From positions 62,001 to 126,000 of the forward strand of contig CAJTDK010000009.1 in NCBI GenBank assembly GCA_910575105.1: 64,000 nt of DNA, read 5' to 3'. Made by a program: the position numbers and the translations under genes. How positions within the stretch are numbered: position 1 is the stretch's first letter; each line of letters opens with the position of its first letter. Shown here piece by piece: positions 4,232 to 57,666 of this stretch. The notes below the pieces were generated by a model that worked only from the letters and a program-made list of their open reading frames with translations, was not told the origin of the DNA and searched no databases. The stretch is from Lachnospiraceae bacterium (GTDB lineage Bacteria > Bacillota > Clostridia > Lachnospirales > Lachnospiraceae).

Positions 4232-5110
4232 ATGCTAGAATATTCAAGGGTTATGGCAAAGCTTTTGCAGAGCGCTGCGGAACAAAGGCAGGCCGTATTG
4301 AAATTACGGAAGGAAGGTAAGAGAAATCGCAGGATGGATAGGGAAGGACAAGAGCAAAGACTGCCTGAAAGGGATATCCGGACAATCGGAATTATCGAGG
4401 ATGACAGGCTGTTAAATCAGGCATTGGATATGAGCCTTAAAAATGCGGGCTACGCTACGGTCTGTGCGAGGACGAGAGCGGAGGCACTGGCTCTTATGGG
4501 AAACGGGGAGGCGCTGCTGCTGATCGACATCGGGCTTCCGGATGGAGACGGCATCGGCCTGTATCAGGAACTTAAGAGCAAGTTTTGTGCCAGGCTGCAG
4601 GCAGGAGATCAGACACAATTACATCACGAACGCATGAGCCTGGCTATTTTCCTGACGGCCAGAGACGAGGAGAAGGATATGCTTGCCGCCTTTGACATGG
4701 GCGCGGATGATTACGTGGTCAAGCCCTTTTCCATGAAAGTGCTGCAAAAAAGGATTGAGGCCGTACTGAAGCGGGACGCCAGGGAAAGCAGGGAAAGGGC
4801 AGAGCAGACGGTTTGTGCGGGGGAGCTTGTCCTTTACCCTGAACGGAAGCGGGTATTTGTAAAAGGCCGGGAGATATCCCTGACGGCCAAAGAATACCGG
4901 CTGTTGGAGTATCTGATGGTAAATCAGGGGCAGGTGCTCACAAAGGAAAACATTCTGGAGCATGTATGGGGGATTGACGGACAGTTCGTGGTGGATAATA
5001 CGGTGAGTGTGACGATAAATCGTTTACGCAGGAAGATCTCGCCGGGTTCAGAAGGAGCCTGCCGCATTAAAAATGTGTTTGGGATCGGGTACCGGATAGA
5101 GGTTAGCTAA
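4232..5110 (+). CDS. OmpR-family response regulator
   Basis: A receiver plus winged-helix regulator. The receiver shows the acidic pair IIEDD, the phospho-acceptor in LLLIDIGLPDGDG, the Thr of FLTARDE and the Lys of VVKPF. The C-terminal domain (SLTAKEYRLLEYLM ... VSVTINRLRRKI ... FGIGYRIE) is OmpR-type. Two oddities: about 50 residues precede the receiver, and about 15 extra residues (ARLQAGDQTQLHHER) interrupt the receiver between alpha-3 and beta-4. The start is uncertain: ATG 4232 has TGAGG at good spacing; TTG 4190 and ATG 4334 are alternatives, the last giving a normal-length protein. It heads a regulator-kinase-ABC-permease cluster and probably controls the ABC genes at the direct repeats at 6170. 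Confidence 0.88.
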   Translation: MLEYSRVMAKLLQSAAEQRQAVLKLRKEGKRNRRMDREGQEQRLPERDIRTIGIIEDDRLLNQALDMSLKNAGYATVCARTRAEALALMGNGEALLLIDIGLPDGDGIGLYQELKSKFCARLQAGDQTQLHHERMSLAIFLTARDEEKDMLAAFDMGADDYVVKPFSMKVLQKRIEAVLKRDARESRERAEQTVCAGELVLYPERKRVFVKGREISLTAKEYRLLEYLMVNQGQVLTKENILEHVWGIDGQFVVDNTVSVTINRLRRKISPGSEGACRIKNVFGIGYRIEVS

Positions 5111-5161
5111 AGGCCGGGAGCCGGGCAGAGTGTAACGGTAGGATAAAAGGGGCAGCATGGG

Positions 5162-6082
5162 ATGTATATAGCGATATTTTTTGGTATCCTCGCGGGAGTT
5201 TTCTGCGGCGGGGCGGGGATGTATCATTGGCAGAGAAGGCAGAGAGAACAGGAATTAAAACGAATTGCCGGGCTTGCGGAGGATATTTTGGCTGAGCGGG
5301 TAATCAGAGGGGCGGCATCAGGCCAGGAGACGCTTTGCGGGAAGCTGGAGCATCGGCTTGTGCGTGTGCAGGAGATGATGCAGGGCAGCCGGGATGAAGC
5401 GAAGAGGAGCCGGGATGAGATCCAGAGGCTCATATCCGAGATCGCCCACCAGATGCGCACGCCTCTTACGAATCTGGAGACGTATCTTGGATTTTTACAG
5501 GAGATGGCGGAGGATGATGAAAACGATGGGGTATTACGGTCATTGGATGCTGCGGGGGAGAGCGCGGGGAAACTGCATTTTCTCGTGGAGAGCTTTATTC
5601 GGATGTCCCGGTTAGAGCAGCATATCATCCAGATTAAAAAAGAAGAGACGGATATCCTTAGGACTGTCAGAAATGCGCTGGGGCAGATACAGTGCCAGGC
5701 GGAGGAAAAAGAGCTTAATGTCACGGTGAGCCTTCCCGGACAGGCGGGCCTGGCCCATGACGCTAACTGGCTGGGGGAGGCGCTTTTTAATCTTTTTGAC
5801 AATGCGGTAAAGTACAGCAGGATTGGAGAGAAGATTGAGGTGTCCGTGACGGAAAGTGAGATGTTTTTAAAGGTACGGGTGAGAGATTACGGCATCGGTA
5901 TTGAGGAAGGAGAGGAGGGCCAGATCTTTAAGCGGTTTTACCGGGGGAGGCGGGTCACTGCTCAGGAAGGGTTCGGGCTCGGGCTTTACCTGGCGCGTGA
6001 GATCGTGGGCAGGCATGGCGGGTTTCTGGCGGCAAGAAGAGAAGAGCCGGGGCTTACGATGGAGATGAACCTTCCGCGGTGA
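5162..6082 (+). CDS. Sensor histidine kinase
   Basis: A 306-residue kinase with a single N-terminal membrane helix (residues 1-20) and almost no extracellular part. A coiled region leads to the HisKA box (SEIAHQMRTPLTNLETY, His96) and a HATPase_c domain with N-box NLFDNAVKYS, G1 RDYGIGI, F-box FKRFYRG and G2 GFGLGLYLAREI. Lack of an outside sensor suggests it senses through the partner ABC permease, as in Bce-like modules; this is inference. It lies 51 bp downstream of its response regulator and upstream of the ABC genes it probably governs. Confidence 0.9.
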   Translation: MYIAIFFGILAGVFCGGAGMYHWQRRQREQELKRIAGLAEDILAERVIRGAASGQETLCGKLEHRLVRVQEMMQGSRDEAKRSRDEIQRLISEIAHQMRTPLTNLETYLGFLQEMAEDDENDGVLRSLDAAGESAGKLHFLVESFIRMSRLEQHIIQIKKEETDILRTVRNALGQIQCQAEEKELNVTVSLPGQAGLAHDANWLGEALFNLFDNAVKYSRIGEKIEVSVTESEMFLKVRVRDYGIGIEEGEEGQIFKRFYRGRRVTAQEGFGLGLYLAREIVGRHGGFLAARREEPGLTMEMNLPR

Positions 6083-47143: not shown

Positions 47144-47196
47144 ATGCCATGAGCGCGCCCGGAAAAAGCGTTGTTCATGGCATTTTATATTTTTTA
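47144..47196 (+). terminator. Riboswitch-controlled terminator
   Basis: ATGCCATGA (47144-47152) and TCATGGCAT (47175-47183) form a perfect 9-bp stem, then TTTATATTTTTT. Lies between aptamer and gene. Confidence 0.88.
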
Positions 47197-47215
47197 CCTT
47201 CAGAAAGGATTTGAG

Positions 47216-48850
47216 ATGATGAGAGAAAAGAAAAAAGCAATGTGGGGGGTAATTACACTCCTCGGGATTCTCCTGATGAGCAGTATGACCGTATTTGCGG
47301 CAGACGATGCAGCAGAGTACGTGCCGGCGATGTACGCCTCCTTCTGGTCGCTGGTTCCTCCAGTGGTGGCCATCGTTCTTGCGCTGATTACAAAAGAGGT
47401 TTACAGCTCCCTGTTTATCGGAATTGTGATCGGAGGAGTATTTTATTCGGGATTTTCTTTTGAAACGACGGTACTCCATGTATTTCAGGACGGTATCGTG
47501 GGGGTTCTTACGGATGCCTACAATATGGGAATCTTAGTGTTCCTTGTTATTCTGGGCGTTATGGTCTGTATGATGAACAAGGCGGGCGGTTCGGCGGCTT
47601 TCGGGCGCTGGGCCAGCGAGCATATCAAAAGCCGTGTGGGGGCGCAGCTCGCGACGATCCTTCTCGGCGTGCTGATTTTTATTGATGACTATTTTAACTG
47701 TCTGACGGTGGGAAGCGTGATGCGGCCGGTGACGGATAAGCACAATGTGTCCAGGGCGAAGCTTTCCTACCTGATTGATGCGACGGCGGCTCCGGTGTGC
47801 ATCATCGCGCCGATCTCTTCCTGGGCGGCAGCGGTGACCGGATTTGTAGAGGGGGAGGACGGATTTTCCATCTTTATCCGTGCCATTCCGTTTAACTACT
47901 ATGCGATTCTTACGATTGTCATGATGGTGACTGTCGTGCTGTTAAAGATGGATTACGGCCCGATGAAGCTGCATGAGAAGAATGCAGTCGCGGGGGATCT
48001 CTACACAACTCCGGACCGTCCTTATGCCAATGCGGAGGAAGATATAACGGAGAGCAGGGGCGGGGTCATCGATCTGCTCTTCCCGGTTATCGTGCTGATC
48101 ATCTGCTGTGTCATCGGTATGATCTACACAGGCGGATTCTTTAGCGGAACCGGCTTTGTGGAGGCGTTTTCCGGAAGTGATGCGTCTGTCGGGCTGATGC
48201 TTGGAAGCTTCTTTGCCTTTGCTGTCACCATCGTGTTCTATGCGGTAAGGAAGGTGCTGAAGTTCAATGAGTCGATGGCTTGCATCCCGGACGGCTTTAA
48301 GGCGATGGTTCCGGCGATCCTGATCCTGACCTTTGCGTGGACGTTAAAGGCGATGACAGACAGTCTCGGGGCGAAGGAGTATGTGGCGGCAGTCGTTGAA
48401 AATGCTACCGGGCTGTTAAGCCTTCTTCCGGCGATCATCTTCCTCGTAGCGTGTTTCCTTGCATTTGCGACAGGAACATCCTGGGGAACCTTTGGCATCC
48501 TGATCCCGATCGTTGTAGCGGTATTTGTCGGGAAGAATGAGACGATGATGATCATGTCCATCTCCGCATGTATGGCGGGGGCAGTCTGCGGCGATCACTG
48601 TTCGCCGATCTCGGATACGACGATCATGGCATCTGCGGGGGCACAGTGCAACCACGTCAACCATGTGACGACGCAGCTTCCGTATGCGGTTACAGTGGCG
48701 GTAGTGTCCTGCGTGACATACCTGCTCGCGGGAGTCTTGCAGAATTTTATCGCGGGTGCGCTCGTGGCGGTTATCGCGCTTGTGATCGGAATCGTGCTGA
48801 TGATCGGTACATTACTTGTGATGCGGATGATGACGGCAGAAAAGAATTAG
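47216..48850 (+). CDS. NhaC-family lysine transporter (LysW-like)
   Basis: A 544-residue membrane protein with about 12-14 helices and a cleavable-looking N-terminus (LLGILLMSSMTVFAAD). NhaC superfamily marks: SLFIGIVIGGVFYSG, FIDDYFNCLTVGSVMRPVTDKHNVSRAKLSYLIDATAAPVCIIAPISSW and FATGTSWGTFGILIPI ... GDHCSPISDTTIMASAGA. By sequence alone this would be called a Na+/H+ antiporter, but the lysine riboswitch in its leader makes it a lysine (or related amino acid) importer of the LysW kind. ATG 47216 follows AAAGGA; earlier in-frame starts lie inside the terminator. Ends with a strong hairpin. Confidence 0.9.
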   Translation: MMREKKKAMWGVITLLGILLMSSMTVFAADDAAEYVPAMYASFWSLVPPVVAIVLALITKEVYSSLFIGIVIGGVFYSGFSFETTVLHVFQDGIVGVLTDAYNMGILVFLVILGVMVCMMNKAGGSAAFGRWASEHIKSRVGAQLATILLGVLIFIDDYFNCLTVGSVMRPVTDKHNVSRAKLSYLIDATAAPVCIIAPISSWAAAVTGFVEGEDGFSIFIRAIPFNYYAILTIVMMVTVVLLKMDYGPMKLHEKNAVAGDLYTTPDRPYANAEEDITESRGGVIDLLFPVIVLIICCVIGMIYTGGFFSGTGFVEAFSGSDASVGLMLGSFFAFAVTIVFYAVRKVLKFNESMACIPDGFKAMVPAILILTFAWTLKAMTDSLGAKEYVAAVVENATGLLSLLPAIIFLVACFLAFATGTSWGTFGILIPIVVAVFVGKNETMMIMSISACMAGAVCGDHCSPISDTTIMASAGAQCNHVNHVTTQLPYAVTVAVVSCVTYLLAGVLQNFIAGALVAVIALVIGIVLMIGTLLVMRMMTAEKN

Positions 48851-48894: not shown

Positions 48895-49261
48895 TTTGCG
48901 GTGCCTCCCCATGAAACACTTTCCTGCGGACTTTGCGGCAAATGCAAAGCTCGGAGTGAAAAGTAATCGAGGAAGAAAAAATAGAAAAATTTAATAGATG
49001 AATTCGGTGATTTTGGATCGTATGATGTTCATTTGACATATTATCGCTATATTATCAGAAAAGAAGCATCCTCGTTCCGGGCACATTAGGAAATGTGATG
49101 AAAATTATTTCTCATAAATGAAAAATATTTCTTTATATTTCGAATAATCTGACAAATTTCTCAGTTAAAATCCATAATATCCATAGAAAATGCAAATAAA
49201 TAAAATATTTTTGAACCAAAAACCAATAAGTCCGGCCTAAATATATGGAAAAACAGCAAAG
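48895..49261 (+). other. AT-rich regulatory gap before grdX
   Basis: No gene. The first 70 bases are mid-GC (TTTGCGGCAAATGC and GCAAAGCTCGGAG resemble a short piece of the MITE middle, too short to claim). From about 48970 it is very AT-rich with many A/T tracts, which suits an intrinsically bent region between a sigma-54 enhancer and promoter. The direct repeats at 49098-49132 lie here. Confidence 0.5.
49098..49132 (+). promoter_or_regulatory. Direct repeat, candidate enhancer site
   Basis: ATGAAAATTATTTCT (49098-49112) and ATGAAAAATATTTCT (49118-49132) are 14 of 15 identical, exactly 20 bp apart (two helical turns), 130-165 bp upstream of the sigma-54 promoter. Position and phasing fit an upstream activator site for a bacterial enhancer-binding protein; direct repeat geometry is less usual than a palindrome. 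Confidence 0.45.
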
Positions 49262-49262
49262 T

Positions 49263-49278
49263 TGGCAGAAACTTTGCT
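49263..49278 (+). promoter_or_regulatory. Sigma-54 promoter of grdX-grdE-grdB
   Basis: TTGGCAGAAACTTTGCT: the -24 GG (49264-49265) and -12 GC (49276-49277) are separated by exactly 10 bases, as sigma-54 requires. The start would be near 49289, giving an 80-base leader. The overlapping perfect repeat AGCAAAGTT/AACTTTGCT (49255-49278) may add repressor control. rpoN is encoded at 56317. Confidence 0.75.
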
Positions 49279-49369
49279 ATATTAGTAGAGTAAAGGGATT
49301 ATTGCCTGAAATAAAAGAAAGACGGATGGTGCAGATGACGGTAAAACAACGCGGAAAGGGGAGCACAGG

Positions 49370-49768
49370 ATGAAAGGCGTAATGGTGACTAACAATTATA
49401 GGTGTCTGGAAAAATGGGAAGGAAGGCTTCGGATTGACTATAACAAAGAATGGGGATATCTGGACGTGCTTCTGGCGACGAGGGATTACATCCACAGAGG
49501 ATATTTTCTTCTGACCCATCCCCTTGCCGGGAGCGTGAAGCCGAACCAGACGCCCTTCAAGTCAGTGATCCTGGCAGAGGAATCTTTGGAGGGAGCAGAG
49601 GAATTCCGGGATCTGGCGCTGATCGAGGAGAGCATTGAGGCGTACCGCAAATTCATGAAGAACCGTCCGCTCCCCGGATGGCCGGAACAGACAGCAGAAG
49701 ATTTCCGGACCATCGATCTTTCTCTGATGGAAGGCGTTATGTCAAATCCGATGATGAACAGAAGGTAG
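49370..49768 (+). CDS. grdX: GrdX-family protein
   Basis: A 132-residue small cytoplasmic protein of the GrdX family, found at the head of glycine/sarcosine/betaine reductase gene clusters; its biochemical role is not established. Recognised by the TNNYRCLEKWEGRLRIDY start, LLATRDYIHRGYFLLTHPLAGSVKPNQTPFKSVIL and the C-terminal LMEGVMSNPMMNRR. GGGGAG precedes the ATG. First gene of the operon, 19 bp before the reductase B subunit gene. Confidence 0.85.
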   Translation: MKGVMVTNNYRCLEKWEGRLRIDYNKEWGYLDVLLATRDYIHRGYFLLTHPLAGSVKPNQTPFKSVILAEESLEGAEEFRDLALIEESIEAYRKFMKNRPLPGWPEQTAEDFRTIDLSLMEGVMSNPMMNRR

Positions 49769-49787: not shown

Positions 49788-51074
49788 ATGAAATTGGAAT
49801 TAGGTAAGATTTACATCAGTGATGTCCAATTTGCGGAAAAGACCTATGTGGAGAACGGGACATTGTATGTATGTAAAGCGGAGATTGAACGGCTTGTCCT
49901 TGAGGATGAGCGGCTTGCAGGCGCGAGGGTGGAGCTTGCAAGGCCCGGCGAATCTGTCCGGATATCTCCGGTAAAGGACGTGATCGAGCCGAGAGTGAAG
50001 GTAGAAGGCGGCGGAGACATATTCCCGGGAGTGATCGGGAAGGTGGGGCAGGTCGGTGAAGGAAGGACTCATGCACTTGTGGGGGCGACAGTCATCACCT
50101 GCGGGAAGATTGTAGGGTTTCAGGAGGGCGTCATCGACATGTCAGGGCCCACGGCGAAATATACACCTTTTTCCCAGACGAATAATGTGTGCGTAGTCAT
50201 CGAGCCGGCAGAAGGGCTTGAGACTCACGATTACGAGGCGGCAGGCAGGATGGCGGGCCTTAAGACGGCGGTGTACGTTGCCGAGGCGGCGAGAGATCTT
50301 ACGCCGGATGAGGTGGTGACTTACGAGACGAAGCCGCTCCCTATGCAGATCGCCCAGTATCCGGAGCTTCCGAAGATCGGGTACGTACATATGCTGCAGT
50401 CTCAGGGGCTTTTGCACGATACGTATTATTACGGCGTGGACGCGAAGAAATTCGTTCCGACGATTATGTATCCGACAGAGATCATGGACGGCGCCATCGT
50501 CAGCGGGAACTGTGTGGCGCCTTGCGATAAAGTGACGACATACCATCATCTGAACAATCCGGTGATCGAGGACCTATACCGGCATCACGGAAAGGACCTG
50601 AATTTTGTAGGCGTGATCCTTACCAATGAAAATGTGTTCCTTGCAGATAAGGAGCGCCACTCTGACATGGTGGCGAAGCTGGCAGAGTTTCTCGGGCTTG
50701 ACGGGCTTCTCATCACCGAGGAAGGGTACGGCAACCCGGATACGGATCTGATGATGAACTGTAAGAAGGTGGCCCGGGCGGGCGTGAAGGTGGTCATTAT
50801 CACTGATGAATTCCCGGGGCGCGACGGGAAATCCTACTCTCTGGCAGACGCGGTGCCGGAAGCGGACACGATGGTATCCTGCGGGCAGGGCAACCTGATC
50901 GTTCATTTCCCGCCGATGGACAGGCTGATCGGCACGATGGACTATGTGGAGAGCCAGATCGGCGGGTACGCCGGCTGTATGAATGAGGACGGCAGCTTTG
51001 ACGCCGAGCTTCAGATCATCATCGCATCAACGATCGCAAACGGCTTTAACAAACTGGCCGCCCGCACTTATTAG
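49788..51074 (+). CDS. grdE: Glycine/sarcosine/betaine reductase component B, alpha/beta proprotein
   Basis: A 428-residue proprotein of Stickland reductase component B. It is cleaved at an Asn-Cys bond to give two subunits, the new N-terminal Cys becoming a pyruvoyl group that forms a Schiff base with the amine substrate. The site is visible: IVSGN|CVAPCDK at Asn241-Cys242, the position described for the Eubacterium acidaminophilum protein. Start MKLELGKIYISDVQFAEKTYVENGTL is typical; AGGAGGTG precedes the ATG. It pairs with the selenoprotein subunit 16 bp downstream. GrdG (sarcosine) and GrdI (betaine) are close homologues, so substrate is not settled and the symbol is by best overall likeness. 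Confidence 0.9.
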   Translation: MKLELGKIYISDVQFAEKTYVENGTLYVCKAEIERLVLEDERLAGARVELARPGESVRISPVKDVIEPRVKVEGGGDIFPGVIGKVGQVGEGRTHALVGATVITCGKIVGFQEGVIDMSGPTAKYTPFSQTNNVCVVIEPAEGLETHDYEAAGRMAGLKTAVYVAEAARDLTPDEVVTYETKPLPMQIAQYPELPKIGYVHMLQSQGLLHDTYYYGVDAKKFVPTIMYPTEIMDGAIVSGNCVAPCDKVTTYHHLNNPVIEDLYRHHGKDLNFVGVILTNENVFLADKERHSDMVAKLAEFLGLDGLLITEEGYGNPDTDLMMNCKKVARAGVKVVIITDEFPGRDGKSYSLADAVPEADTMVSCGQGNLIVHFPPMDRLIGTMDYVESQIGGYAGCMNEDGSFDAELQIIIASTIANGFNKLAARTY

Positions 51075-51090: not shown

Positions 51091-52398
51091 ATGGCAAAAT
51101 ACAGGATCGTACATTATATCAATAACTTTTTCTCCGGAGCCGGCGGCGAGGAGGCGGCAGGCATGAAGCCGGAGGTTCATCAGGGACCTGTGGGGCCGGG
51201 GCTTGCGTTAGAAACGGCTTTCGGGGAGGACTACGAGGTCGCGGCTACTGTTGTGTGCGGCGACAATTACTTCGGGGAGAACCTTGAGGATGCCACGGCG
51301 GAACTGATCGGCATGATCAGGCTCTATGAGCCGGATCTGTTTATCGCGGGGCCTGCATTCAACGCGGGGCGCTACGGGGTGGCGTGCGGAACCATCTGCA
51401 AGGAAGTGGAGAGAGAGCTTGGGATTCCGGTGCTTACGGGCATGTATGAGGAGAATCCGGGCGTTGACATGTTCCGCAAGGAGCTGATCGTGATAAAGAC
51501 AAAGAACTCTGCGGCAGGCATGAGAAAGGCAGTGCCGGTCTTTAAGAATCTGGGGGAAAAGCTGGTGAAGGGCGAGGAGATCTTAGGGCCGGATACCGAA
51601 GGCTATCTGGAGCGGGGAATCCGTGTGAATTACTTTGCAGAAAAACGCGGCTCCGAGCGTGCCATAGAGCTGCTTTTGAAAAAATGTAAGGGGGAGGAAT
51701 GTCCTACAGAGTATCCGATGCCGAAGTTTGACCGGGTAGAGCCTGCGGCTCCGGTTACGGACATGGCGCATACGAAGATTGCTATCGTTACCTCTGGCGG
51801 CATCGTTCCTCAGGGGAATCCGGACCATATCGAATCCTCCAGCGCCACCAGGTACGGAATATACAGCGTCGCGGGAATGGAGCGGATGGACAAGAAAGAC
51901 TTTATGACCGTTCACGGCGGCTATGACCGGGCGTTTGTCACGGAGGACCCGAACCTGGTCATCCCCCTTGACGTGCTCCGCGAGATGCAAAAGGAGGGAG
52001 TAATCGGCGAGCTTGCCGACTACTTTATCACGACCACCGGAACCGGGACGTCCACCGGGAACGCAAAAGCATTCGGAGAGGATTTTGTAGGAAGGCTTAA
52101 GGAGGATAAGATCGGCGCGGTCATCCTCACCTCCACATGAGGCACCTGTACCCGTTGCGGTGCAACGATGGTGAAGGAGATTGAGCGGGTAGGCATTCCG
52201 GTCGTGCATATCTGTACGGTAGTTCCGATTTCGAAGACGATCGGGGCGAACCGGATTGTGCCGGCGGTCGGGATTCCGTATCCTCTGGGAGATCCGACAA
52301 AATCGCCGGAGCAGAGCAAGAAGATCAGAAGGGAGCTGGTGGAGAGAGGGCTTAAAGCGCTGGAGACACCGGTGAGTGGACAGACTGTATTTGAATAA
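51091..52398 (+). CDS. grdB: Reductase component B selenoprotein subunit (UGA = Sec)
   Basis: A 435-residue selenoprotein. The frame has an in-frame TGA at 52138-52140 and continues GTCTRCGATMVKEIER to a TAA at 52396. The context AVILTST-U-GTCTRCGA is the conserved selenocysteine site of GrdB/GrdF/GrdH, so U350 is Sec, not a stop or frameshift. The Sec selenol attacks the substrate carbon and hands a carboxymethyl group to GrdA. Other marks: HYINNFFSGAGGEE, FIAGPAFNAGRYGVACG, TSGGIVPQGNPDHIESSSAT and HGGYD. ATG 51091 has AGGAGG 8 bases ahead; ATG 51085 is too close. No GrdA, GrdC or GrdD is in the window. Confidence 0.95.
52142..52163 (+). promoter_or_regulatory. Candidate bacterial SECIS hairpin
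   Basis: GCACC (52142-52146) and GGTGC (52159-52163) pair around a 12-base loop, starting one base after the UGA. Bacterial SECIS elements lie directly behind the Sec codon in the coding region. The stem is short; a mixed fold is possible. Confidence 0.55.
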
Positions 52399-52459: not shown

Positions 52460-53059
52460 CTATGAATAGGAAAATTGAGTGTGCTGGCGGCGGTACGTGT
52501 CGTTGTCCTTCTGGCGCAGTTCGTTTTCCACCTGCGCAAGCTGTGATTCAAGCTGCTTGATCTTTCGCTCGTCCGTCTCGGAATTTAACTGTTTCTGAAG
52601 TTCGGCCTGCTTCTTTTTCAGCTTTTCAATCTCACGGTCAACCTTGTCAGTATTGCCGGTGCAGGTTTCTGCTTTTTTGTCGTTGCCGGCATTCTTGTTT
52701 TCTTCCGGAGAACCGGTATTCTTGCTGTCCTCCAGAGAATCAGCATTCTTGTCCTTTGCCGGAGAACTGCCATTCTTGATGTCCTCGGCATCTTCAGCGC
52801 GTTTTGGATCGTCAAAATGAATCTTCGGCTTGCCGTTTTCATCGTTTTCCAGCCAGTAGCGTCCGATGGGCTCCTTTTTTTCTTCCGGTATGTATTCATC
52901 CATCACCGGCGCTGCCGGCTGGCTTAGTGATACATCGCCGGTGCGGGAGACGGCTTCGGTCTTTTGCACCTCGGATGGCTTTTGGGCGCGCTCAGCCGGC
53001 GTGGGCTGATATGGTTCCTCATGGAGTTTGTTCGGGTTCATATTCGTAATAGGGTTCAT
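52460..53059 (-). CDS. Hypothetical coiled-coil protein
   Basis: A 199-residue soluble protein without signal peptide or membrane segment. N-terminal NPITNMNPNKLHEEPYQP, a DVSLSQPAAPVMDEYIPEE region and YWLENDENGKPKIHFDDP look like a conserved module; residues about 90-130 are Asn/Asp/Lys/Glu-rich with a doubled (D/E)(D/E)SKN(T/A)GS(P) motif; residues 135-185 are a strongly predicted coiled coil (EIEKLKKKQAELQKQLN...). I do not recognise the family. Start MNPITNMN has GAGG upstream. Convergent with grdB; probably monocistronic. Confidence 0.6.
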   Translation of the reverse strand: MNPITNMNPNKLHEEPYQPTPAERAQKPSEVQKTEAVSRTGDVSLSQPAAPVMDEYIPEEKKEPIGRYWLENDENGKPKIHFDDPKRAEDAEDIKNGSSPAKDKNADSLEDSKNTGSPEENKNAGNDKKAETCTGNTDKVDREIEKLKKKQAELQKQLNSETDERKIKQLESQLAQVENELRQKDNDTYRRQHTQFSYS

Positions 53060-53140
53060 TTTTAGGTTCCTCCAATCTTGAAATATTCCGGCAGATGTTC
53101 ATTGCCTGGTATCTTCAGCATACCACCCATTCACGGAGTT

Positions 53141-54478
53141 TCAAGGTTTTTGGGCTGGAATGTCTTCTGGATGTAATGAAATGTTAAGCAGCACGTTCAG
53201 GGAAAAATGCGGGCCTTCTTTTTCTGCCAGTAATGTGCCGTGATATTTTTCGGCGGCTGTCTGGATATTTTTCAAACCGGTTCCCATAGGCGGCAGAGGT
53301 TCATCCGGGCAGGTGTTTTCAAATTCCAGCATATAGAGATCGCCCTGCCGCTCTCCAAAGATGCGGACTGACCTTGCTCCGTTTGCAGCCCGGCAGGCAT
53401 TTACCGCATTGTCCAGAGCATTTGCAAAGATCACGCACAGGTCAAAGTCATCGATGCCGCAGGATTTCGGCAGGATAAGGGAGACTTCTGCTTCAATGCC
53501 GCAGGCCTTTGCTAGGGACAGCTTTTCGCTCAGCAGGATATCCACCACCGGATTCCCTGTCTGATAGGGAAAGGACAGGGAGGAAGAGATGCTTTCCAGC
53601 GAGTGCAGGTAGTCTGCGGCTTCCCTTTGTTTCCCGCCGGATAGAAGCCGGCTTAATACGGACAGGTGGTTCTTGATATCGTGGCGGAAGGCTCTTGTCT
53701 GCTCATAGCGCGCCTGGGCTTCGGCAACGTAGATTTTTTGCGCTTGCGCTGCCTGGGTCAGGGAGGTCAGCGCCGCCTGTGCCTTGAATCCCCGGCAGAC
53801 GCGCCGGTAGGCGTAGATCGTACACAGCAGCGCGCCTAGCCCGAGAGCCTGCAGAACGAGCAGGGCAACGTGCTTTCCGGCTTCGGTCAGTGAGAAGGAC
53901 AGGGAGGAGACGATGGCAACGGTCTGCGTGTAAGAGGTCTGTATGATATACAGCTCTGCGGTGAAAAAGAACAGCACCGGGAACAGGAGTAGGGGAACCA
54001 GAAGCGGCCCGTTATCCGGATCCTGTCCCGCCTCCTCTAAGGAAAGGGATTTTGCCACAAGGATGTAGCAGCAGGCGCAGACGGAAAAGGCGGCGGCCAT
54101 TGCCAGGAGAATCAGCACATACAGGAAAGCATTTCCCACCAGATAAGGGAACAGGAGTGACTCTGCTGAATTGACGAGGCCGAAGGAAAGCTGGGAGATA
54201 TAGAGTGCAAGGATGGCGGCGGTCCATGACACAGCCGGCCGGTTTCCCAGGGCGAAGCGGCAGAGCCCGTACAAGATAAGCAGTTCTCCGGCAACGGCGG
54301 GAATCCAGGCAAGGGAAAACCGGCCAAAGATCCACTCAAAGGCGCACAGAAGGGAAAGGTATGCGGCAAAGTGGCAGAGCTTGGGCGTTTTCCCGGTAAG
54401 ACGGCTGATGAAGAGGAGGTGCATCACGCCCTGTACCACGAGGCAAAAGCTGTTGAGGACAAAGATAAAATAATCCAT
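53141..54478 (-). CDS. GHKL-type (AgrC-like) sensor histidine kinase
   Basis: A 445-residue kinase with about six N-terminal helices (residues 1-220), a coiled linker, the phospho-acceptor motif TRAFRHDIKNHLSVLSRLL (His near 268), and a GHKL ATPase domain with FANALDNAVNACR (N-box) and MGTGLKNIQTAAEKYHG. This is the AgrC/CitA-like class that partners LytTR regulators and often senses peptides. It starts one base after the LytTR gene's stop and is the last gene of a three-gene operon headed by a sigma-54 activator. Ligand unknown; no AgrD-like peptide gene was seen. Confidence 0.9.
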   Translation of the reverse strand: MDYFIFVLNSFCLVVQGVMHLLFISRLTGKTPKLCHFAAYLSLLCAFEWIFGRFSLAWIPAVAGELLILYGLCRFALGNRPAVSWTAAILALYISQLSFGLVNSAESLLFPYLVGNAFLYVLILLAMAAAFSVCACCYILVAKSLSLEEAGQDPDNGPLLVPLLLFPVLFFFTAELYIIQTSYTQTVAIVSSLSFSLTEAGKHVALLVLQALGLGALLCTIYAYRRVCRGFKAQAALTSLTQAAQAQKIYVAEAQARYEQTRAFRHDIKNHLSVLSRLLSGGKQREAADYLHSLESISSSLSFPYQTGNPVVDILLSEKLSLAKACGIEAEVSLILPKSCGIDDFDLCVIFANALDNAVNACRAANGARSVRIFGERQGDLYMLEFENTCPDEPLPPMGTGLKNIQTAAEKYHGTLLAEKEGPHFSLNVLLNISLHPEDIPAQKP

Positions 54479-54479
54479 A

Positions 54480-55193
54480 TCAGAATTTCCTTCCTTTCAT
54501 ATAACGCAGGAGCGCCTGACGGAGATCCTGTTCACGGAGCCTGGAGACGGGAATACTGCCTCCCGTCGACAAGGTGATCTGTCCGGCGCCGCATCCGCTG
54601 ATGCAGCCGAGATTGACGATAAAGCTTCTGTGGCATCGGAAAAAACGGCTGTCAAGGCGCTCTCCGAAATCTTCCAGCTTCTCATAACAGTCGGTGACCT
54701 TCCCGCCGCTCTGGTGGATATAGATCTTGCGGCCCTGTACTTCACAGTACACAATCTCTGACATACGGACGACCTCGCAGGAGTTCCCCTTCTTTATGAC
54801 GATGCTGCTGCTCTTTTGCTGCGCCAGGGACTGTACCGCCCTGTCCATAGTACGGCAAAAATGTTCGCCATCTAGGGGCTTTAGCAGGTAATCGCTGGCC
54901 TGCACTTCAAATGCGTCGAATACACATTCCTTCAGGATGGTCACAAAGATCAGAAGGCCGTGGTAATTGCGCTGCCGCAGTATACGGGCAGTCTCCATCC
55001 CGTCCGGTTCTTTCATCTGGATATCGAGAAAGATCAGGTCAAAATCACAGCCGCTGCCCAGCAGGGACGAACTGTCCGGGAAGGTTTCGACGCGGTAGGG
55101 AATGAACGGTTTTTCTTTCATATATGCACAGAGCTTTGCTGAGATTTCTTCCGCCATATACGGCTCGTCATCACAGATTGCAAAATTGATCAT
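54480..55193 (-). CDS. LytTR-family response regulator
   Basis: A 237-residue regulator. Receiver: ICDDEPYMAEE, phospho-acceptor in LIFLDIQMKEPDG, and a Lys in YLLKPLD. The C-terminal LytTR domain: RMSEIVYCEVQGRKIYIHQ ... YEKLEDFGERL ... FFRCHRSFIVNLGCI ... IPVSRLREQDL. It starts 5 bases after the sigma-54 activator's stop, with GAGGTGAT of that stop region as ribosome site, and directly precedes its kinase. LytTR proteins bind direct repeats at promoters; targets unknown. Confidence 0.93.
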   Translation of the reverse strand: MINFAICDDEPYMAEEISAKLCAYMKEKPFIPYRVETFPDSSSLLGSGCDFDLIFLDIQMKEPDGMETARILRQRNYHGLLIFVTILKECVFDAFEVQASDYLLKPLDGEHFCRTMDRAVQSLAQQKSSSIVIKKGNSCEVVRMSEIVYCEVQGRKIYIHQSGGKVTDCYEKLEDFGERLDSRFFRCHRSFIVNLGCISGCGAGQITLSTGGSIPVSRLREQDLRQALLRYMKGRKF

Positions 55194-55198
55194 TTACA

Positions 55199-56182
55199 TC
55201 ACCTCAACTGATATTCCTGTATCTTATTGAAAATCTGGCGGGAGCTTATGCCGAGCTTCCGGGACGCTTCGGCCACATTTCCGTCAAGCTTTTCCAGCAC
55301 CCATTTCAGATATTCTCTCTCGCTTTTCTTTTTATATTCTTTCCAGGGGATAATGGATGAAAAGGTATCCGTCCCTCTCTCTTTAGCGGTGCCGCAGATA
55401 TTGTAGAGGGTGGGGAGGGCTTCCTCAGTCACTATGCCATCCTGGGAGAGGATCACCATCCGTTCGATGATATTTTTCAGTTCCCGGATGTTCCCGGGGT
55501 AATCGTAGGCGAACAGAAAGTCCTTTACTGCGCTGTCCAGCGCGCGGATTGTGATGCCGTTCTCCTTCTGGAGCTTCTGGAAGAAAAAGTCGATGAGCGC
55601 AGGCAGGTCTTCTTTTCGCTCGCGCAGGGCGGGAATCTTTATGACGATAGTGCTGATCCGGTAGAAAAAATCCTCCCTGAATTCCCGGCTGCGGATCTTC
55701 TCGGGAAGATCCTGGTTGGTGGCGGTGATAAGCTGGAAGTCGATCTCCCGCTTGGTGTTGCTGCCGATCCGCTCGATCTGTTTTGTCTCCAGGGCGCGCA
55801 GCAGCTTGATCTGGGTGGTCAGGGACAGGTCGCCGATCTCGTCCAGAAAGAGGGTCCCGTGGTTGGACAGCTCAAATTTGCCGGTGTGGGTCTTGGAGGC
55901 GCCGGTAAAGGAACCCTGCTCGTGCCCGAACAGCTCGGATTCCAGAAGGGTCTCCGTAAATGCGCTGCAGTTGACGGCGACAAAGTTCTGGCCGCTCCTG
56001 CGGCCGCAGGCGTGGATGTAGCGGGAGGCAATCTCCTTGCCGCAGCCGGATTCGCCGGTCAGGAGTACATTTGCATGGGAGTCGGCGACGCGCTCACAGA
56101 AGTTAAGAGTCTGCCGGAATAAGGGGCTTTTGGTCTCGAGGTGAAATTGCTTTTTTAAGGTCTCTTTTTTTGTGTTTGGCAT
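55199..56182 (-). CDS. Sigma-54-dependent enhancer-binding protein without sensor domain
   Basis: A 327-residue AAA+ activator, PspF-like in plan. It starts with about 20 residues then the AAA+ core: Walker A TGESGCGKE (43-50), the sigma-54 contact loop GSFTGA (90-95, a variant of GAFTGA), Walker B GTLFLDEIGDLS, sensor regions and an arginine finger (REFREDFFYRIS). The end is a Fis-type helix-turn-helix (LDGNVAEASRKLGISSRQIFNKI). It has no receiver, PAS or GAF domain, so it needs another control. ATG 56182 has AAGGA upstream; the frame runs 50 codons further, without a motif. Co-operonic with a LytTR two-component system and divergent from rpoN; the likely activator of the grdX promoter. Confidence 0.92.
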   Translation of the reverse strand: MPNTKKETLKKQFHLETKSPLFRQTLNFCERVADSHANVLLTGESGCGKEIASRYIHACGRRSGQNFVAVNCSAFTETLLESELFGHEQGSFTGASKTHTGKFELSNHGTLFLDEIGDLSLTTQIKLLRALETKQIERIGSNTKREIDFQLITATNQDLPEKIRSREFREDFFYRISTIVIKIPALRERKEDLPALIDFFFQKLQKENGITIRALDSAVKDFLFAYDYPGNIRELKNIIERMVILSQDGIVTEEALPTLYNICGTAKERGTDTFSSIIPWKEYKKKSEREYLKWVLEKLDGNVAEASRKLGISSRQIFNKIQEYQLR

Positions 56183-56316: not shown

Positions 56317-57666
56317 ATGGAACTAAAGACACAGGTGAATCAGAAGATGACGCTGTCTGCGCATATGCAGCAGTGTCTTGAGATATTGGCTATGGACAAT
56401 GTGGAGCTTGGGGAATTTCTTGCGGAGCAGTCTATGGAGAATCCAGTCATGGAATTGTCTGATACTGCCGTGTGGACGCAGTACACTCCGGCGATGGTTC
56501 ATGTGGAGCGGGAACAGCCGGAGGATGAAGAGGAGACCGGCCGGGAGATCGCAGCGTCGGAGAGCGCGAACAGCGATCTTTATTTTCAACTGTCCGAGTA
56601 TCGTCTGGCGCCGGATGTGAGGAAGGCGGCAGAGTATATCATCGAGAGCCTTGACGGGCGGGGATATTTTACGGACGGTATAGCGGAGAGCGCGCAGGTG
56701 CTTGGGCTGGAGAGCGGCGCGGTGGAGAAGGCGCTTGAGGTGGTAAAGCAACTGGAGCCGAAGGGGATCGGTGCGTCGGATCTGAAGGAGTGCCTGCTTT
56801 TGCAGCTTGCGTCCGAGTATCCGCAGGAAGAGACGGCGAGAGAGATATTAGAGCATTATCTGGATGATTTTTCCAAAGGAAGATATGAGAAGATCAGCAA
56901 AAAGACGGGAAAGCCCAAGACGCAGATCATGGAGGCGGGAGACATCATCCGCAGGCTAGACCCGAAGCCTTTTGGCGGCGGGAGACTGCCGATGCGTACA
57001 AGGTATCTGTCGGCGGACCTTGCGCTGGTGATGTACGGGGATTCCTTCGATATCGTCCTCAATCAGACCTATCTGCCGGAGATTGGGGTCAGCCGCCTCT
57101 ATGTTGACATGTTAAGCGGCGATGTGGATGAGCAGACGAAACAGTATATCCGGGAGCGTTATGAGAAGGCAAAGTGGATCAGGGAATGTGTGCAAAAGCG
57201 GCAGAGGACGCTTCTTAGGATCGCGGAGCTGGTCTTTAGGGATCAGACGGAATTTCTGGCCTGCGGGCCGTCGGGGATACGGCCGTTGACGCTTAAGGAG
57301 GCGGCGGATGAGCTTAAGCTTAGCAGCTCCACCGTAAGCCGCGCAGTCAGGGGCAAATATATCCAGACCCGGTGGGGCATCTATCCGCTTAAGGCTTTCT
57401 TCGGCGGAGGGATCCGGACGGAGGAAGGGACGGTCAGCGCAGCGCAGGTACGTGCCGTGATCGGCCGGATGATCGAGAAGGAGGATAAGGCTCATCCCTT
57501 GAGCGACAGTAAGCTTGCGACTATGCTTAAGGAACGGGGGATGCGTGTGTCCCGCAGGACGGTCGCGGCGTACCGGGAGCGGCTGGGAATTCCGGCATCA
57601 GCGGTGCGCAGGGCAGAGCATTTTTATAAAGGAGATGGCGGCGGCTTGGATGGGGCTGCCCATTAA
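56317..57666 (+). CDS. rpoN: RNA polymerase sigma-54 factor
   Basis: A 449-residue sigma-54. Region I (MELKTQVNQKMTLSAHMQQCLEILAMDNVELGEFLAEQSMENP) is typical for activator contact, followed by the acidic region II, a core-binding region III, a helix-turn-helix (LTLKEAADELKLSSSTVSRAVRGKYIQTRWGIYPLKAFF) and the RpoN box, here VSRRTVAAYRERLGIP. Region I is intact, so it should need an ATP-driven activator, matching the divergent enhancer-binding gene. AGGAG lies before the ATG. It ends 124 bp before the M16C protease gene. Confidence 0.96.
   Translation: MELKTQVNQKMTLSAHMQQCLEILAMDNVELGEFLAEQSMENPVMELSDTAVWTQYTPAMVHVEREQPEDEEETGREIAASESANSDLYFQLSEYRLAPDVRKAAEYIIESLDGRGYFTDGIAESAQVLGLESGAVEKALEVVKQLEPKGIGASDLKECLLLQLASEYPQEETAREILEHYLDDFSKGRYEKISKKTGKPKTQIMEAGDIIRRLDPKPFGGGRLPMRTRYLSADLALVMYGDSFDIVLNQTYLPEIGVSRLYVDMLSGDVDEQTKQYIRERYEKAKWIRECVQKRQRTLLRIAELVFRDQTEFLACGPSGIRPLTLKEAADELKLSSSTVSRAVRGKYIQTRWGIYPLKAFFGGGIRTEEGTVSAAQVRAVIGRMIEKEDKAHPLSDSKLATMLKERGMRVSRRTVAAYRERLGIPASAVRRAEHFYKGDGGGLDGAAH

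Follow-up and report, generated by a model that had tools for sequence, protein, structure and literature searches.

Sigma-54 control of sarcosine reductase is already known in C. difficile. A -24/-12 promoter, TTGGCATAGAAAATGCTTT, has been mapped in front of the sarcosine reductase operon CD1740-CD1741, which has SarR with the two-component system SarRS (PMC7438776), and SarR control of grdGF has been predicted for Clostridioides (Nie et al. 2019, PMC6615313). No -24/-12 promoter drives transcription of the main glycine grd operon in C. difficile (PMC7438776). The preliminary description of the DNA treated here could not confirm a precedent for a Grd component-B operon, a position that is overtaken by the SarR/grdGF system (PMC6615313, PMC7438776).

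We analysed a stretch of 64,000 nucleotides from a Lachnospiraceae bacterium, below called the window (64 kb). Like the SarR (CD1739)/grdGF system of C. difficile it has a sigma-54 promoter before a sarcosine reductase operon and a related activator gene nearby, and the C. difficile locus L119 has the same 16-bp palindromic site in two copies, GAGAAAAAAACTTCTC. The mapped promoter TTGGCATAGAAAATGCTTT was also found here before grdG in L119, matching the CD1740 entry. Of the features that mark the SarR-grdGF regulon, the grdGF target, the related activator beside the operon and the common site motif are all present, and the receiver-domain response regulator is not, since the activator is a protein of 327 aa in which that domain is absent. 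This is the first of the new features of the locus, C. difficile SarR having both a receiver domain and the partner SarS. The others are the spacing of the two sites, 20 bp as compared to 23 bp in C. difficile, an extra rpoN gene that adjoins, and grdX at the head of the operon. The activator gene is also placed differently, downstream of the operon and on the opposite strand.

Two other systems are less close. PrdR and the prd genes are similar in that a Stickland reductase is under sigma-54 and a dedicated activator, but the enzyme is a different one, the activator of the window scores 331 bits to the PrdR model (cut-off 795), and the PrdR site belongs to the TGT-N10-12-ACA class (Nie et al., PMC6615313) as compared to GAAA-N4-TTTC in the window. 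The PspF-type activators likewise consist of AAA+ and Fis-type HTH only, with no regulatory domain, an arrangement seen in 11 among 490 EBPs in Clostridiales (Nie et al., PMC6615313), but the activator is not orthologous to PspF (240.8 bits to the PspF model, cut-off 443.6).

We consider it very probable, judging from the sequence comparisons below, that grdX-grdG-grdF has a complete sigma-54 regulatory region in the 180 bp at 49098-49278. A promoter, paired sites, an activator, a sigma factor and a target were all found at the level of sequence, and they occur together across genera.

The target operon

The operon consists of three genes, the last of them with a selenocysteine element:

49370-49768, plus strand, grdX (NCBIfam GrdX, 135.5 bits, cut-off 40)
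49788-51074, plus strand, grdG, sarcosine reductase component B alpha subunit (NF040793, 864 bits, cut-off 780)
51091-52398, plus strand, grdF, component B beta subunit, a selenoprotein (NF040794, 825.5 bits, cut-off 800)
52141-52178, plus strand, SECIS_4 selenocysteine insertion element (Rfam RF01990, 59 bits, gathering cut-off 38)

The GrdF score was taken with TGA read as Sec; the in-frame TGA Sec codon is at 52138-52140 and the SECIS_4 element lies directly 3' of it. The selenoprotein also scores 627.9 bits to the glycine GrdB model (cut-off 602.2), and for the alpha subunit the GrdG cut-off was the only one passed. The GrdG and GrdF family scores together with the SECIS element thus point to component B of sarcosine reductase and not to grdE-grdB, and the operon label grdX-grdE-grdB of the preliminary description has to be replaced, as NCBIfam names the sarcosine-specific GrdG and GrdF instead. 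From the family models the substrate would be sarcosine; glycine reductase grdE-grdB was rejected because the best model is not glycine-specific. The GrdA gene is found elsewhere in the genome. The genome has another grd region, at C4, for which sigma-54 control was rejected, as there is no perfect -24/-12 core in the 18-kb stretch L149.

The promoter element

Sigma-54 promoters have GG and GC 10 bases apart within TTGGCA/TTGC, start transcription about 12 bp past the GC, and depend on rpoN. The candidate promoter and the inverted repeat that overlaps it are placed as follows:

49262-49278, plus strand, predicted sigma-54 promoter TTGGCAGAAACTTTGCT, with -24 TTGGCA and -12 TTTGCT
49255-49278, inverted repeat AGCAAAGTT/AACTTTGCT, overlapping the promoter and not conserved as a palindrome

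In TTGGCAGAAACTTTGCT the GG is at 49264-49265 and the GC at 49276-49277, with 10 bases between them in the TTGGCA/TTGC setting, and the grdX ATG at 49370 is 91 bp 3' of the element, which agrees with the earlier reading of GG and GC 10 apart some 90 bp before grdX. The predicted transcription start would be near 49289.

With at most one mismatch, the -24/-12 hexamer core has 13 matches in the window, as compared to 8.9 expected, and in genome-wide pattern searches the perfect core TGGCAN6TTGCW was found 18 times in 4.24 Mb, as compared to 8 for the reversed pattern. As these counts are not beyond chance in either the window or the genome, the hexamer core alone is weak evidence. The setting of the core is beyond chance, in its position, its conservation and the tandem palindromes above it. 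The element at 49262-49278 is the only one of the 18 perfect cores that is both intergenic and directly 5' of a gene on the same strand; the core L002 is not clearly intragenic, but no gene on its strand follows closely, and the remaining perfect sites (4254 and 4577 of the window among them) were rejected, nearly all of them lying within genes. Four genomes of this group agree in every base of the -24 and -12 hexamers. Taken with the comparisons below, a sigma-54 promoter before grdX-grdG-grdF is strongly supported as a prediction.

A weak sigma-70-like match, CTGACA-18-CATAAT, is present at 49149-49178, upstream of the sigma-54 promoter, and was rejected as a promoter, there being three such matches against a chance level of 1.7. 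An Rfam search of the leader gave no riboswitch or other element, the SECIS in grdF being the only match.

Predicted activator sites

Between the antiporter gene upstream and the promoter, three further features were recognised:

49098-49113, predicted activator site 1 (UAS), palindrome ATGAAAATTATTTCTC, core GAAA-N4-TTTC
49118-49133, predicted activator site 2 (UAS), palindrome ATGAAAAATATTTCTT, at a spacing of exactly 20 bp from site 1
49185-49231, AT-rich block AAATAAATAAAATATTTT...AATAAGT, between the activator sites and the promoter, conserved in four group genomes

A de novo ZOOPS EM search of 256 bp upstream of 19 SarR-linked promoters gave one palindromic motif, AAGAAATAWATTTCTT, with the core GAAA-N4-TTTC and a log-likelihood of 110-120 (widths 16-20 bp) as compared to 24-40 for shuffled sequence. 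Within the 64-kb window the best match is 49118-49133 and the second-best is 49098-49113. Two or more copies of the motif were found in 18 of 22 SarR loci, in none of 62 grdG loci without SarR and in about 1% of shuffles; since the motif and its matrix came from the very loci in which copies were then counted, the window included, the weight lies with the controls, and independence of the matrix can be claimed only for the control loci, the shuffles and the pattern search of the genome. In this last search the tandem palindrome pair without mismatch occurred once in the genome.

The activator sites of sigma-54 systems are usually found 100-250 bp upstream (PMC6615313), and the tandem palindromes, at 130-165 bp upstream, are where such sites would be expected. 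The preliminary description, whose promoter element has been borne out, overlooked these paired palindromes. The spacing of the sites is 20 bp in 13 loci (the window and 12 others) and 23 bp in five, of which three are from C. difficile, one is from Peptoclostridium and one is L100. The activators of the 23-bp loci keep the receiver domain, and on the activator tree these five form one clade with full support. The predicted sites are concrete enough to be open to footprinting. The AT-rich block is 78% identical to three relatives, as compared to 33% for 49136-49175 and 52% for 49232-49254.

Comparison of grdG loci

The genome contigs were searched with GrdG, which gave 80 named loci, and a SarR-like EBP was defined as one with at least 45% identity. 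Of 21 loci that have such an EBP, 20 also have a -24/-12 element (one mismatch at most) before the operon, as compared to 8 of the 66 loci that lack the EBP (Fisher p=2.4e-12, a value that overstates the independence of the loci as they share ancestry). The preliminary description had suggested a search for the same element before grd operons of relatives, and its sigma-54 promoter is now backed by conservation, by the link to a SarR-like gene and by the activator sites. Two of the eight loci with promoter and without EBP, L028 and L056, belong to the same group and are incomplete, and for L028 the activator is present in the longer stretch L145. By these comparisons the sigma-54 control seen for a Stickland-type selenoenzyme in C. 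difficile is extended to a group of gut Lachnospiraceae and several other Bacillota lineages.

The only EBP-positive locus that lacks the promoter, and also the activator sites, is L057 from Lachnospiraceae bacterium MD308. Here the rpoN gene at 4561-5364, beside the activator, has an internal deletion, there is no other rpoN in the genome, and the reading frame of grdX is interrupted by a stop codon. As its rpoN is broken and its promoter and sites are lost, L057 can be regarded as a natural knockout. In L058 the rpoN beside the activator is reduced to a remnant. In L055 (Lachnospiraceae bacterium 3-2) the linked rpoN, rpoN1, is absent and two other rpoN genes are present, and the promoter core, the activator and the tandem sites are intact. 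From the loss in L057 and the retention in L055 it follows that the promoter goes with having a sigma-54 of some kind, which need not be the linked one.

It is in the light of these loci that a chance -24/-12 look-alike, with the operon driven by a sigma-70 or sigma-A promoter, has to be judged. There are 18 perfect cores in the genome, most of them intragenic, and C. difficile transcribes its main glycine reductase operon without a -24/-12 promoter (PMC7438776), but a look-alike would not be expected to be conserved, linked to a SarR-like gene, preceded by tandem activator sites and lost jointly with rpoN, and we regard this explanation as extremely improbable.

The inverted repeat over the promoter

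The perfect inverted repeat that the preliminary description saw over the promoter is real. Its arms, AGCAAAGTT at 49255-49263 and AACTTTGCT at 49270-49278, are 9 bp long and perfect, with a loop of 6 bases, and it is the only perfect repeat of at least 7 bp within 48951-49372. Given the promoter bases, the null probability of a 9-bp perfect repeat is about 0.0024, and the repeat was therefore worth examining.

The same description proposed that a repressor could use the palindrome to block the promoter. The repeat would then be an operator, and a repressor that keeps out the sigma-54 holoenzyme would give a double lock on the operon. Apart from the low null probability, it speaks for this that arms of 7 bp are still found in G057 and of 6 bp in L055, and that the part of the left arm lying outside the promoter shows 81% conservation, as compared to 52% for its upstream flank. 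However, the symmetry is largely that of the promoter itself (GTTGGCA and AACTTTGC), and the perfect 9-bp arms are seen in the window only. Among the three nearest relatives the perfect arms shorten to 7 bp (G057), 6 bp (L055) and 5 bp (L056) with no compensatory change, and they measure 3-6 bp in the sigma-54 promoters of 18 further operons of this type. As the arms decay without compensation, a repressor site is unsupported; a functional palindrome was rejected, the symmetry not being kept among the 22 promoters tested, and an operator at 49255-49278 is in our opinion very unlikely. The repeat may have a lineage-specific role, judging from the conservation of its left arm, but most likely it has no function separate from the promoter.

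The repeat can also be read on the minus strand, where 49280-49253 would form an 11-pair stem followed by a T-run, a weak terminator-like hairpin that could act as an intrinsic terminator against antisense transcription running upstream from grdX. The stem has only 3 G-C pairs, there is no minus-strand gene between the repeat and grdX, and G057 and L055 keep neither the stem nor the T-run, which makes such a terminator hardly credible.

The activator and its proposed mode of action

The activator and rpoN genes are found 3-4 kb downstream of the operon:

55199-56182, minus strand, SarR-like sigma-54 activator, 327 aa (Pfam PF00158 and PF02954)
56317-57666, plus strand, rpoN (sigma-54), divergent from the activator gene (TIGR02395, 374 bits, cut-off 277)

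The activator has the AAA+ and Fis-type HTH domains, and in Pfam no receiver or sensor domain was found in its 327 aa, and nothing before the AAA+ domain. Its identity to the EBPs encoded next to grdGF in other genera is 49-58%, and to the C. difficile EBP 49-50%. There are only two convincing EBPs in the genome, this being one of them. It carries the motif GSFTGA, an allowed variant of GAFTGA (PMC6615313), and the genome thus encodes both an rpoN and an activator of the GAFTGA type.

In the most probable reading, regulation proceeds as follows. Sigma-54 RNA polymerase would sit at 49262-49278 as a closed complex, and the SarR-like activator (55199-56182) would bind the palindromes at 49098-49113 and 49118-49133. 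The bound activator would loop across about 130 bp and open the promoter by ATP hydrolysis, with a transcript beginning near 49289, and sarcosine or a related signal would be the inducer. Without a receiver domain, the activator would lack the phosphorylation entry point expected of its C. difficile relative. Control may be exerted on its synthesis or through a partner protein, or there may be none. An activator branch that has lost the receiver, and whose sites differ in spacing by 3 bp (20 as compared to 23), raises the question of how sarcosine would be sensed in the absence of the kinase.

No SarS-like kinase was seen beside the activator, the adjoining kinase being of the GHKL type with a LytTR regulator. 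The genes at 52460-55193 on the minus strand, beside the sarcosine reductase genes, encode the LytTR regulator, the GHKL kinase and a small coiled-coil protein. The same set is present in C. difficile L119, at +2984 to +5585 relative to grdG, and these neighbours might supply the missing signal input.

Sigma factors and a second module

The genome has more than one rpoN gene, as have Ralstonia, Xanthomonas and Bradyrhizobium with their paralogous rpoN genes. Each of 57 Clostridiales genomes had a single sigL (Nie et al., PMC6615313), in contrast to the two rpoN genes here, each beside an activator and a likely target. The second module consists of a PAS-type activator, a divergent codB-codA and the second rpoN, rpoN2. 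In the window's genome it is split by contig ends, at G000:C36 (L148:1501-3013) and G000:C10:403-711 (L147), and it is found also in G057 (L146:1332-7048) and at L162:4409-10155. Its promoter reads CAGGCA instead of TTGGCA, identically in three genomes.

The linked rpoN could be a private sigma factor that alone recognises the grdXGF promoter. Its gene is divergent to the activator gene in the window and in G057, and rpoN2 lies beside the second activator and codB-codA; the RpoN box of the grd-linked sigma-54 (window, L145 and L057) reads TVAAYRE or TIAAYRE, thus AAYRE as compared to AKYRE in most others compared, and the -24 element differs between the modules. A strictly private rpoN is weakened by L055, in which promoter core and activator are both still present without rpoN1, alongside two other rpoN genes, and we find this alternative improbable. 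A more general suggestion would be that the sigma-54 of this group has shrunk to self-contained cassettes of rpoN, activator and operon, in which the sensorless SarR is switched by a partner, possibly GrdX, and not by phosphorylation. The linkage of rpoN1 with the sensorless SarR and grdXGF, and of rpoN2 with the PAS activator and codBA, was observed; strictly exclusive pairing is less likely in view of the one relative in which rpoN1 has gone and the promoter has stayed, and we regard the suggestion as improbable.

Upstream of the operon, at 47171-48850, is a gene for an NhaC-family Na+/H+ antiporter, a possible sarcosine transporter. An NhaC-family gene is found upstream also in L055 (93% identity) and L082 (70%).
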